Source: Alteromonadaceae bacterium
GTDB taxonomy: Bacteria > Pseudomonadota > Gammaproteobacteria > Pseudomonadales > Oleiphilaceae
Reading direction: 5' to 3'
Length of the DNA stretch: 10,184 nt
Assembly: GCA_013393545.1 (NCBI GenBank)
Contig: JABXHG010000019.1
Span: 1-10,184 of the forward strand
This document shows, piece by piece, positions 3,857 to 9,099 of this stretch. Under the pieces are notes generated by a model. The model was not told the DNA's origin. It made no database searches and worked only from the letters and a program-made list of their open reading frames with translations. Positions within the stretch are counted from its first letter, which is position 1. Each line of letters begins with the position of its first letter. Both the position numbers and the translations under genes were made by a program.

Positions 3857-6329
<2,473 letters not shown>

Positions 6330-6332
6330 CTA

Positions 6333-6396
6333 ATCCGCACCCTGGCATTCGCCAGGGTGACGTTGCCAGCAACACAGCTGATAGGTTTCTATCCGC
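6333..6396 (-). ncRNA. crRNA-like guide RNA (CreA/CreR type) in the cas3-cas5d gap
   Basis: On the minus strand, 6396-6385 reads GCGGATAGAAAC, identical to the last 12 bases of the repeat and including the whole 11-nt handle. A 25-nt pseudo-spacer follows (6384-6360) and starts CTATCAGCTGT. Next comes a perfect 9-bp hairpin (CACCCTGGC 6359-6351, loop GAAT, GCCAGGGTG 6346-6338) followed by CGGAT, so it ends like a genuine repeat, whose stem is also followed by CGGAT. This is pseudo-repeat, pseudo-spacer, pseudo-repeat. Its seed matches 6667-6677 beside a TTC PAM. The rest of the first repeat is lost apart from a weak CGCT/AGCG stem. A poor -10-like TATAGG lies at 6426-6421. Known analogues are CreA antitoxin RNAs and CreR autoregulators. 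Transcript ends are not known from sequence. Confidence 0.75.
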
Positions 6397-6401
6397 TCTT
6401 T

Positions 6402-6593
6402 TTAGCGCAACAGCTCCGGTCCTATAGCCATCACTGCCAGAAAAAAAGAGACCAGCGGCCAAGCACATGGCATGTCAAGATTCAGGCTCGCTCTACCCCA
6501 ATTGATAGCCAGAGAAGCTTTTCCTCTCCAGACGTAGAAAACCAGAGAAAAGGCTCGTCCTTGCTGTGGGTGGCGTTGCGTATCGTGGGACAT
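6402..6593 (-). CDS. Candidate CreT-like small membrane protein, 63 aa, or leader ORF
   Basis: I do not recognise a family. The ORF has a purine-rich AGAGGAAGGG directly before its ATG and ends five bases before the pseudo-repeat. The N-terminal third is polar (MSHDTQRHPQQGR). A short aromatic stretch, FSLVFYVW, lies at 15-22. Residues 44-62, AWPLVSFFLAVMAIGPELL, could span or insert in a membrane. It lies downstream of a promoter that the crRNA-like guide should bind, which is where the toxin gene creT sits in known CreTA modules. Some CreT toxins are RNAs rather than proteins, so the ORF may be incidental to a toxic RNA. If the guide instead controls the cas operon, this is just leader sequence. 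Confidence 0.35.
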   Translation of the reverse strand: MSHDTQRHPQQGRAFSLVFYVWRGKASLAINWGRASLNLDMPCAWPLVSFFLAVMAIGPELLR

Positions 6594-6663
6594 CCCTTCC
6601 TCTTGGCTCAGCTTGACCGAACCGCTACCTTATCTTGGCACCACCACCGCAATCAATAAAAAC

Positions 6664-6688
6664 TTCCTATCAGCTGTAGGTTATACCA
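6664..6688 (-). promoter_or_regulatory. Extended -10 promoter overlapped by a PAM-flanked match to the crRNA-like guide
   Basis: On the minus strand, 6688-6680 reads TGGTATAAC, an extended -10 with five of six consensus bases. It overlaps the cas3 stop codon. Transcription would begin near 6673 and run through the 63-codon ORF toward cas5d. The -35 region is weak, as is common with extended -10 promoters. On the plus strand, TTC (6664-6666) immediately precedes CTATCAGCTGT (6667-6677), the same 11 bases that start the pseudo-spacer. A Cascade footprint of about 35 bp from 6667 would cover the start site and the -10. Promoter activity is inferred. Confidence 0.6.
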
Positions 6689-8918
6689 CCATGCTTTCAG
6701 CCTGCATAAAGGTAGGATGACTCCAGTTCAGCCCTCGCCATGCATCATAGAGGTCTTCATTGATCAGCTTCACGAACTGTTCACCGAATTTATCAGGCTC
6801 AACGGCCGCTACTGCACCAACCCGCTCCAGCGCGGCAAACCCTTGCTGCGGCACCTGTACTGTATAAGGCTGCAGTTTACGTGAAATTTCTCCAACGCCT
6901 TCAGCATAGACCAAGTCATTCAAGGCTTTACGTGCTACCCCATCTTCATCAGTGGCGATAATGACGGTTTTCTGGGTGTTCTCGATCATGAGGAATTTCT
7001 GCTCAAGGAGCTCGAATGGCAGCCCTTCCAGACGCCCTTTCTCCACAAGATCCAAAAGACCGTGGCGGTCAAGCTTTTGGGCACCTTGCTGCCAGTAAAG
7101 CAGCCGGAAGTAACTTTCTATGGCTGGTGGGGATAAAGGATCGTTACCGTGCTTACGCAGAACCTCCCTGGCCACCTGGGCAAACTGCTTCAGCTCAGGC
7201 GGCGGAGACCAGTCTTCATTTTCCGTGGCAAAAATGGCAACTTCACTATCACTTGCGGAGTGCTTGCCTTCACGATTACAGCGCCCAGCGGCTTGAGCGA
7301 TGGAGTCCAGCCCCGCCTCAGCTCGCAGCACGCGTGGGAAATCTACGTCAACACCTGCCTCTATCAGCGAGGTCGACACCACGCGGCACGGCTTGCCTGC
7401 TTTCAATACCTGCCGTATTTCCGCTAACACTCGGCGGCGATGAACCGCATACATTGAGGTAGTAAGGTGATAAGTGCCTGGCTGGTCGGCGATGGATTCA
7501 AACAATGCCCGAGCATGACGCCGATTGTTGACAATACACAGCACCTGCTCTGTTTTGAGCAGCTCAACGCTTAGCGCATCATCATCCAGGGTGCCGATGT
7601 GACTTACATTCACCCGCTTCAGATCTTGATATAGTTTATCAATATTGGGTGCCAGCTCGTGCAAGTGACGCAGGCCACCCTCAAAACTTTTTTCAGGATC
7701 GTCGCTTTCAGCAAGCGCCGGCTGTGTCGCTGTGCACAGCACAATACTAGCGTGATAATTAAGCGCCAGCTCGTCCAGCGCAGCCACGCTAGGCCGTAAC
7801 AGTGGCAACGGCATGGTCTGCGCTTCGTCAAGAATCACTACGCTGTTAGCAATGTTATGTAGCTTGCGGCAACGCGAGGTTTTGGCAGCAAACAGGCTCT
7901 CGAAAAACTGCACGGAAGTCGTCACCACGACAGGAGCATCCCAGTTTTCGCTGTCTCGACGCAGCTTATCGATCGTTTTTTGATCCGGCTGACTATCAGA
8001 ATCAAAAGCACTGTGATGCTCCAGGACCGCCGATGCTCCATGCTCACCCAACGCATGACGAAAAACGTCGGCGTTCTGCTCCACAATACTGGTGAACGGA
8101 ATAACGTAGATCACTCGGTCCATGCCGTGAGTAATGGCATGATCAAGCGCGAATGCCAAGGAGGCTAGCGTTTTACCACCGCCAGTAGGCACGGTGAGTG
8201 TAAACCTGCCCGGCGGGTATTCTGCCTGGCTGCGAACGTGGGACAATATCTCACCGCGTCGGCGATTTAAATCGCTGTCTGCCTTTAAGGTAGCCAAGTG
8301 GCTATCAAGCGCATTACGCAATATCGAAAGCGACGGCCGGCCACCACGCAGGTGAGGCGAGCCATTTTCACGCACAGCATAAAACGCTTCTGTATCGATG
8401 TAATCAGCATCAACCAGACAAGAAAACAGCATTCTCGCTAAAAAAGCATACTGAAAAAATGCTCTCTCGCAATGCGGCTGGAAGTGTGCCGGTGGCGCAA
8501 GCTGACGGGGCAAGGCCTTTTCTACCTCTTGCTGCCATATAGGATTAAGCGGAGGAAAATCGGCTTCCAGACGATTTTTCAGTGGCGTGCGTTCCCCCGC
8601 ATCGCGCCCATTGGCCAGACCCGCATGGTGACCCGCGATCAAGTACGCAAGCAGATAGCCAAGCCGTGGATATTGCTCCATGGCGACATGGGCACCGGCA
8701 GTAGAGTGATCCACTCGTTCTGCCGCGCCCTCCAACCGCCGCTGAAAGGGCTGCGTATACTTTCCCAGATCATGCAACAGGCCAATCGCCTGTCCCCAAG
8801 GCTCGGCACCAAACCGGCCGGCACGCTCTCCGGCCATTCGGCCGACAACAGTTAAATGATCTGCTAGCGTTTGCCAATCTGTTTTATCCAGAGTAGGAGT
8901 CGAATGCGCGTAGTACAT
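6681..8918 (-). CDS. cas3: Cas3, HD nuclease and helicase of CRISPR interference
   Basis: This 745-residue protein is recruited by target-bound Cascade, nicks the displaced strand and unwinds and degrades DNA. The N-terminal HD domain has YYAHS, LLHDLGK (His49-Asp50), DHSTAGA (His71), AGHHAG (His97-His98) and the Asp of LVDADYI (170). Helicase motifs are TVPTGGGKT (242-250), DEAQ (364-367), TAT (396-398), STSLIEAGVDVDFP (515-528) and QAAGRCNREG (542-551). DEAQ in place of DEAH does not look inactivating. The ATG at 8918 is preferred because AGGGA lies four bases upstream and the family usually starts just before YAHS. The frame stays open to a GTG at 9008. The 366-nt gap after it means cas5d to cas2 probably have their own promoter. 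Confidence 0.95.
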   Translation of the reverse strand: MYYAHSTPTLDKTDWQTLADHLTVVGRMAGERAGRFGAEPWGQAIGLLHDLGKYTQPFQRRLEGAAERVDHSTAGAHVAMEQYPRLGYLLAYLIAGHHAGLANGRDAGERTPLKNRLEADFPPLNPIWQQEVEKALPRQLAPPAHFQPHCERAFFQYAFLARMLFSCLVDADYIDTEAFYAVRENGSPHLRGGRPSLSILRNALDSHLATLKADSDLNRRRGEILSHVRSQAEYPPGRFTLTVPTGGGKTLASLAFALDHAITHGMDRVIYVIPFTSIVEQNADVFRHALGEHGASAVLEHHSAFDSDSQPDQKTIDKLRRDSENWDAPVVVTTSVQFFESLFAAKTSRCRKLHNIANSVVILDEAQTMPLPLLRPSVAALDELALNYHASIVLCTATQPALAESDDPEKSFEGGLRHLHELAPNIDKLYQDLKRVNVSHIGTLDDDALSVELLKTEQVLCIVNNRRHARALFESIADQPGTYHLTTSMYAVHRRRVLAEIRQVLKAGKPCRVVSTSLIEAGVDVDFPRVLRAEAGLDSIAQAAGRCNREGKHSASDSEVAIFATENEDWSPPPELKQFAQVAREVLRKHGNDPLSPPAIESYFRLLYWQQGAQKLDRHGLLDLVEKGRLEGLPFELLEQKFLMIENTQKTVIIATDEDGVARKALNDLVYAEGVGEISRKLQPYTVQVPQQGFAALERVGAVAAVEPDKFGEQFVKLINEDLYDAWRGLNWSHPTFMQAESMVV

Positions 8919-9099
8919 GGCGTCCCTGCGGGTTGATAAATAAGCGCTTGCTTTATGATTTAAGCTAAGCATTCTTAGCCAGTTTTCACAACTTTTTGAG
9001 CTCACCACACAACATACATGAGCACTACATGACGTAAATCATCTGCTCATGAAGGCTGTCCCGCCAAAAAACCTTAATCACCAATTCCCATACCCCGTT
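8919..9099 (-). promoter_or_regulatory. cas3 upstream region with nested inverted repeats
   Basis: This noncoding region lies between cas3 and the divergent metal-transport operon. GCTAAG (8964-8969) and CTTAGC (8974-8979) form a perfect inverted repeat around CATT. CATGAGCA (9017-9024) and TGCTCATG (9044-9051) form another around 19 bases, and an ATGA...TCAT pair is nested inside it. A weak minus-strand promoter candidate is TTTACG, 16 bases, TATGTT, in about 9013-9040, inside the larger inverted repeat. These palindromes could be operators for cas3, but I recognise no specific regulator site. No copy of the guide-seed target is present here. Confidence 0.4.

Follow-up and report, generated by a model that had tools for sequence, protein, structure and literature searches.

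The closest described relatives of the locus analysed here are the CreTA, CrePA and CreR systems. In the CreTA modules of the haloarchaea H. hubeiense and H. hispanica, guide and target pair at seed positions 1–5 and 7–11, and a change at any one of these ten positions in H. hubeiense CreA abolishes antitoxin function (PMC8501985). Most published creA genes share a layout with two degenerate repeats, according to the same report (PMC8501985), and a later account states that the earlier creTA genes all surround the cas6 of a type I or III system, while the type I-F module that it describes sits in the cas3–csy1 gap (PMC10097628). No type I-C CreTA was found in the literature searched, whose coverage leaves out key primary papers (Li 2021, Liu 2023, Shmakov 2023 and Shu 2024, of which Shmakov 2023 may list I-C elements). 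We class CreTA, CreR and CrePA as already known, and the type I-C setting, a predicted membrane-peptide toxin and the spread over many lineages as new here. The locus is probably a CreTA-type module in a type I-C cas operon, in which a CreA with a PAM-flanked 11-base seed would guide Cascade, without cutting, to the predicted promoter of CreT, a predicted toxic one-helix membrane peptide.

The window, by which we mean the whole 10,184-nt stretch of DNA that was analysed, carries a complete type I-C locus on the minus strand in the order cas3, a 366-nt gap, cas5c, cas8c, cas7, cas4, cas1, cas2 and array. The cas3 gene (6681–9008, minus) matches TIGR01596 and TIGR01587 and cas5c (5646–6314, minus) matches TIGR01876 (E 8e-54); these family matches bear out the gap length given in a first-pass annotation of the sequence and place the gap at 6315–6680. 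The array (153–789, minus) contains ten intact 33-nt repeats, GTCGCGGCCCGCACGGGTCGCGCGGATAGAAAC, and a degenerate terminal repeat near 84–117. Read in the operon direction, the gap holds a seed target, a weak promoter candidate, a Shine–Dalgarno sequence, a 63-codon ORF, a copy of the repeat handle, a pseudo-spacer and a hairpin. A gap of about 400 bp after cas3, two psi-repeats, a PAM-flanked target and a Shine–Dalgarno-led ORF are shared with the Acinetobacter I-F CreTA (PMC10097628), although the I-F CreT, a 33-bp ORF divergent from creA that acts as a bactericidal RNA, is unlike the ORF in the window (PMC10097628). The I-E locus of Citrobacter rodentium likewise has its module in the gap after cas3 (cas3–casA) and a PAM-flanked partial target, which there lies at the UP element of the promoter (PMC12055562).

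The candidate creA is a degenerate two-repeat mini-CRISPR between cas3 and cas5c (6396–6331, minus). The window has 11 copies of the repeat handle GCGGATAGAAAC; ten belong to the array, and the other stands at 6396–6385 on the minus strand, where the first-pass annotation had reported it. This 12-nt copy of the 3′ handle constitutes the first degenerate repeat, psiR1 (6385–6396), for which folding gave only a weak stem upstream (z −1.65). It is followed by a 23-nt pseudo-spacer (6362–6384, minus), the first 11 bases of which are the seed, and by a second degenerate repeat, psiR2 (6331–6361, minus), which consists of the hairpin CACCCTGGC-GAAT-GCCAGGGTG and then GCGGATTA; as folded, C6359, after GT, pairs with G6338. 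The stretch 6361–6329 adopts the shape of the array repeat (−19 kcal/mol, z −4.4), thus indicating that the guide in the window is a two-repeat mini-CRISPR. Neither psiR2 nor the 63-codon ORF with its Shine–Dalgarno sequence was part of the first-pass annotation. A crRNA-like guide with degenerate flanking repeats is therefore present inside the cas locus, as in CreTA, and the two degenerate repeats around a pseudo-spacer, the TTC PAM and the seed at 1–5 and 7–11 are shared with the haloarchaeal modules (PMC8501985, PMC9458426). Folding was extended to 32 loci, made up of 29 of the 34 loci positive in the survey described below plus L026, L052 and L087, and in 31 of them a hairpin of −7 kcal/mol or lower comes after the pseudo-spacer (counted without a shuffle control). 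Rfam returned three matches for 6200–6800, all below the gathering score. Phage Racr RNAs, which have a single solitary repeat on a mobile element without cas genes, were ruled out by the two repeats between cas3 and cas5c. In L026, a membrane ORF and a handle are followed by two more repeat-like hairpins, and no seed target was found there.

The 11-mer that follows the handle, CTATCAGCTGT, occurs exactly twice in the window, at 6384–6374 (minus), abutting the handle, and at 6667–6677 (plus), abutting a TTC PAM (6664–6666, plus). This is the recurrence on which the first-pass annotation rested, and the seed position, strand and PAM side that it took to fit a type I-C Cascade guide hold in the sequence. 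Guide and target pair at 11 of 11 positions after TTC, with the first mismatch at position 12, also as it had claimed; such an early end to pairing fits binding without cutting. The 14-mer TTCCTATCAGCTGT has a single copy in the window and was absent from all 200 dinucleotide shuffles. A weak candidate creT promoter (6627–6656, minus), with TTGATT at 6656–6651, 18 nt and TAAGGT at 6632–6627, begins 10 nt past the PAM. It scores no better than shuffled sequence (p 0.385), and a stricter scan returned no promoter in 6250–6760. The best promoter beats 90% of shuffles in only 14 of 30 loci, the window not among them, while the best −35 element starts −7 to +12 nt from the PAM (a range picked post hoc) in 19 of the 24 loci with a minus-strand target. 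Promoter scoring thus supports this placement in the relatives and not in the window. The haloarchaeal target sits in the toxin promoter (PMC8501985, PMC9458426), whereas the promoter here is a weak prediction; creT and creA of H. hubeiense are under one promoter, an arrangement to which the module in the window can be likened (PMC8501985, PMC9458426).

The pairing was then compared across loci. We gathered 80 type I-C loci by Cas5 similarity and others from 275 genomes of the family, 390 of the order and 369 of the class. The main count leaves out 24 loci in which the Cas5 match was weak, broken or partial (L108–L110, L122–L134 and L156–L163) and eight duplicates; 132 distinct loci were kept, the window included, three of them without an upstream ORF (L070, L144 and L155), and 49 have a cas3–cas5 gap of 150–2000 nt (with gap limits placed manually for L063 and L078). 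The scan required a handle that departs from one of five I-C handle forms by no more than one base and then matched spacer positions 1–5 and 7–11 elsewhere in the gap region, scoring the ten seed positions plus one point for TTC, and 10 or 11 was taken as positive. A seed-only, PAM-flanked match in cis, the CreTA pattern, is present in the window and was scored in this way in 34 of the 49 loci; among the 15 gaps that fail the scan, several hold other genes. Of the 34 positive loci, 33 have TTC next to the target and one, L028, has TTT; this frequency is partly selected because TTC adds a point to the score.

When all 71 handles were paired with the gaps of other loci, 47 of 3408 foreign pairings reached 10; in 41 cases the pairing was between kin whose guides are alike or included L087, and the other six all come from non-guide handles. 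When the 34 positive guides were set against unrelated gaps, leaving out pairs with guides at least 6/10 alike and six L087 pairs, 0 of 1524 pairings reached 10. The match in the window is not due to chance. For a single fixed 14-mer, the chance estimate in the first-pass annotation has the right order of magnitude, and the contrast between 34/49 and 0/1524 is the stronger test.

Matches per position in the 34 loci number 34, 34, 31, 34 and 33 at positions 1–5, 13 at position 6, 33, 34, 31, 33 and 34 at positions 7–11, 12 at position 12, 25, 28, 22, 27 and 22 at positions 13–17 and 11 at position 18, and then range from 4 to 17; positions 1–5 and 7–11 were selected by the scan, position 6 and those from 12 onward were not. 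The pairing, with its drops at 6, 12 and 18, shows the six-base rhythm of a Cascade R-loop and fades after 17. A decayed array remnant with a chance seed match could be argued from psiR1, which keeps little beyond the handle, and from the 47 foreign pairings above threshold, six of them without kin or L087. With matching pairs in 34 of 49 loci, none in unrelated gaps and a six-base rhythm, this explanation is scarcely credible, and we regard it as ruled out by the cross-locus scan, the rhythm and the psiR2 fold together.

Guides and targets differ between lineages and match in cis. Within the CreT lineage of the window, guide and target both have C at seed position 8 in the window and L004, and both have T there in L001, L086, L090 and L094; at position 3, both have G in L004. 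Independent divergence of seed and target in relatives, which the first-pass annotation had named as evidence that would speak against its guide, was looked for in these comparisons, and the cis match proved to be kept. One of the ten seed positions is unmatched in 9 of the 34 loci (L010, L018, L022, L031, L063, L094, L098, L141 and L150); at position 3 of L094, for example, the guide has G and the target A. In L087 the ORF and guide are intact and the target has one extra base after seed position 5, which could reflect an error in sequencing, a bulge that is tolerated because it falls at the flipped position 6, or a module that is losing control.

Between target and guide lies the creT candidate, a 63-codon ORF (6402–6593, minus) with the Shine–Dalgarno-like GAGGAAGGG (6594–6602, minus) directly before its ATG. 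A three-strand meander followed by one C-terminal membrane helix is predicted; AlphaFold2 places strands at residues 15–22, 25–32 and 35–42 and a helix at 44–62 with moderate confidence (mean pLDDT 71, pTM 0.37). A protein search with the ORF matched only itself, no NCBIfam or PADLOC family was matched, two Pfam matches were both below cut-off, and a fold search of the model against the PDB gave nothing at E 0.001 or better (best 0.13). Its link to the CreT family consists of its position and 19–33% identity. Peptides with a common pattern are found between target and guide in L001, the locus of Halomonas sp. Y3, and in L086, L087, L090, L094 and L004, with a second branch in L083, L091 and L098. 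Nei–Gojobori dN/dS values for close pairs span 0.08–0.41 overall: comparisons of L001 with L086, L087 and L090 fall at 0.12–0.23, the pair L086/L087 is at 0.41, and L083 has values of 0.08 with L091 and 0.11 with L098. For the window, dN/dS is 0.31 with L001, where synonymous sites are near saturation, and 0.39–0.65 or without a value with the others; a looser group (L012, L026, L027 and L031) gives 0.31–0.75 or is not computable. Third codon positions hold most of the differences in most pairs (6, 8 and 29 by codon position in L083/L091), and L086/L087 (11, 6 and 11) has no third-position excess. Judged by these substitution patterns, the predicted CreT peptide is shown to be under purifying selection in the related loci.

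The membrane character recurs beyond this group. From 30 modules with an operon-strand guide, 26 enclosed segments have sufficient length for the test; a membrane-type ORF of at least 34 codons is present in 17 of them, whereas 200 shuffle rounds averaged 0.98 such segments and never exceeded 4. No clear membrane ORF was seen at L010, L064, L065, L071, L075, L141, L142 and L150. A profile of ten CreT peptides gave at least 11 matches in the 275 genomes of the family of L001. Among the candidates scored, nine strong matches all lie directly upstream of cas5 and belong to sequences from which the profile was built, two further matches are weak (E 0.007 and 0.008) and fall inside 712-residue frames, and no strong match lies away from cas5; 23 of 39–79 first-look candidates were scored in the genomes listed, so a distant stray CreT could be missed. 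The ORF in the window likely encodes a small toxic membrane peptide.

We file the window as a putative CreTA-type variant and not as the RNA-toxin form, because its 63-codon ORF belongs to a group under protein-level selection and no tandem rare-codon minigene is present; a small-RNA CreT, such as one that sequesters rare tRNAs, was not found in the window. Haloarchaeal CreT is such a tRNA-sequestering mini-ORF RNA, whereas here a 63-codon ORF of a conserved type is present (PMC8501985). The CreT of Citrobacter rodentium must be translated and is described without a rare-codon design, which the ORF in the window likewise lacks (PMC12055562); as far as that account goes, however, it is a 96-bp ORF without reported homologues, with an opposite-strand guide and known from one locus, whereas the membrane-peptide group occurs in many lineages (PMC12055562). 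The module can also be likened to CrePA, in which a crRNA-like antitoxin and Cascade repress a protein toxin that is triggered by anti-CRISPRs (PMC12737573), but CreP is a KilA-N protein acting on FtsZ and the product here would be a small one-helix peptide (PMC12737573). CrePA itself, the toxin of which is typically a KilA-N protein, was ruled out for an ORF without a Pfam family above cut-off.

Other genes occupy the same slot. L019 and L028 carry, in place of the membrane ORF, Shine–Dalgarno-led minigenes (MVRHTIRRS and MSHSNMFRRA) with AGG AGA and AGA AGA codons. Such tandem rare-arginine minigenes are a known CreT design, and CreT sequestering rare tRNAs by means of such short ORFs has been described for CreTA (PMC8501985, PMC12055562). 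HicA and HicB genes stand beside the module in L004, and a Phd/YefM and PIN pair is found in L145 (Pfam matches, for these two loci only); L063, L078, L117 and L146 have similar type II toxin–antitoxin genes by eye. In L004, L063 and L078, guide and target lie beside the toxin–antitoxin genes. The presence of classical toxins and of a known CreT design in the slot supports the identification of the membrane peptide as a toxin, short of proof. The blank fold, Pfam and PADLOC searches, and a toxicity that is only predicted, would also suit a guide-controlled membrane accessory that is harmless to the cell, such as an effector or sensor in defence through which the envelope is altered when the cell is infected. 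We consider this very unlikely, since position and design equal those of tested CreT toxins and toxin–antitoxin genes share the gap in the loci just named. The gaps of L007, L021, L077 and L176 hold an ORF of about 100–130 codons with a YPNGKIYVG-type motif that looks GIY-YIG-like by eye; the L021 ORF has no Pfam match at E 0.01, and the scan found no guide/target pair in these four gaps.

The first-pass annotation had cited both CreTA and CreR as precedents without choosing between them. CreTA is favoured by the small ORF that is conserved between target and guide and would be the repressed gene, and CreR is left as a rival. In a CreR-type autorepression, the guide would take Cascade to a promoter of cas5–cas8–cas7, so that the complex limits its own synthesis, and the small ORF would be a leader peptide or passenger. 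CreR has been reported for types I-B, I-E and V-A (PMC13131331). Target, creT candidate, creA and cas5 all run in one direction in the window, and a scan of 6250–6760 found nothing resembling a terminator ahead of cas5, so transcription from the promoter may continue into cas5. CreR generally comes without a toxin gene; here a membrane ORF of a conserved type, a toxin candidate, lies between target and guide. Against autorepression, this ORF is under purifying selection in kin, and membrane peptides occur there far more often than in shuffles. The minigenes of L019 and L028 stand at the same place, and in 4 of 34 loci (L039, L065, L119 and L150) the guide lies on the strand opposite cas5 with its PAM-flanked target still in the gap. 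Autorepression as the whole explanation is therefore unlikely. CreR-type control of the cas5 operon may nevertheless act as well, since with creT, creA and cas5 in one direction the amounts of CreA and Cascade may likewise depend on the switch.

A mechanism is proposed for the CreTA-type module. Cas5c is the crRNA-processing nuclease of type I-C systems, which to our knowledge lack Cas6, and it would on these grounds be the enzyme that cuts out CreA, yielding a guide RNA that starts CGGAUAGAAAC-CUAUC. Haloarchaeal CreA, in contrast, is processed by Cas6 (PMC8501985). By analogy with the precedents, Cascade loaded with CreA would block RNA polymerase near the −35 region; a short R-loop would spare the DNA, and Cas3 would not be licensed, since base pairing weakens beyond about position 17, and in the window beyond position 11. 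Intact Cascade would thereby keep creT off, whereas loss of Cascade, jamming by an anti-CRISPR or titration would allow creT to be expressed and the peptide to enter the inner membrane, where it could stop growth or kill the cell. Harm on loss of Cascade would favour retention of the cas operon. TimP is reportedly also a small toxic membrane protein that is repressed by a small RNA, but without Cascade, whereas the module proposed here would use a Cascade guide on DNA.

If this is correct, type I-C systems guard their own integrity by means of a membrane toxin that would be triggered by anti-CRISPRs jamming I-C Cascade, small membrane peptides of a new group are at hand, and some three dozen natural guide/target pairs show partial matches suited to binding without cutting. 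It would also explain why the cas3–cas5 gap is mostly either short (<150 nt in 79 of 127 loci) or about 250–400 nt (35 of 127). We lean towards a broader reading, in which type I-C systems across Pseudomonadota carry an exchangeable toxin slot between cas3 and cas5 that is locked by their own Cascade and combines a fast-changing guide/target pair with one of several poisons (membrane peptides, rare-arginine minigenes or HicA-type toxins). The commonest of these would be one-helix membrane peptides of a group not described before and the first CRISPR-repressed toxins to act on the membrane, with Cas5c as the enzyme that matures CreA.

A small sample from the wider phylum, taken as a fresh replicate, added 21 new loci, one of them a duplicate (L175 of L027); four pass the gap filter and one of these, L181, is positive. 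The three negatives are L176, with its different ORF, L184, which has a misplaced start and a stop in the translation, and L187, which looks coding by eye; L183, the start of which was set by hand, has no upstream ORF. On a Cas5 tree of 129 loci, on which L026, L052 and L087 were labelled as having the module despite failing the scan, module presence is scattered and requires 31 changes, at least 27 of them forced by well-supported branches. Clustering of the module on this tree was rejected (31 changes against 32.5 in shuffles). Gain and loss that look this frequent make the addiction idea testable by comparison. The locus nearest to the window by Cas5, L082, has a gap of 36 nt.
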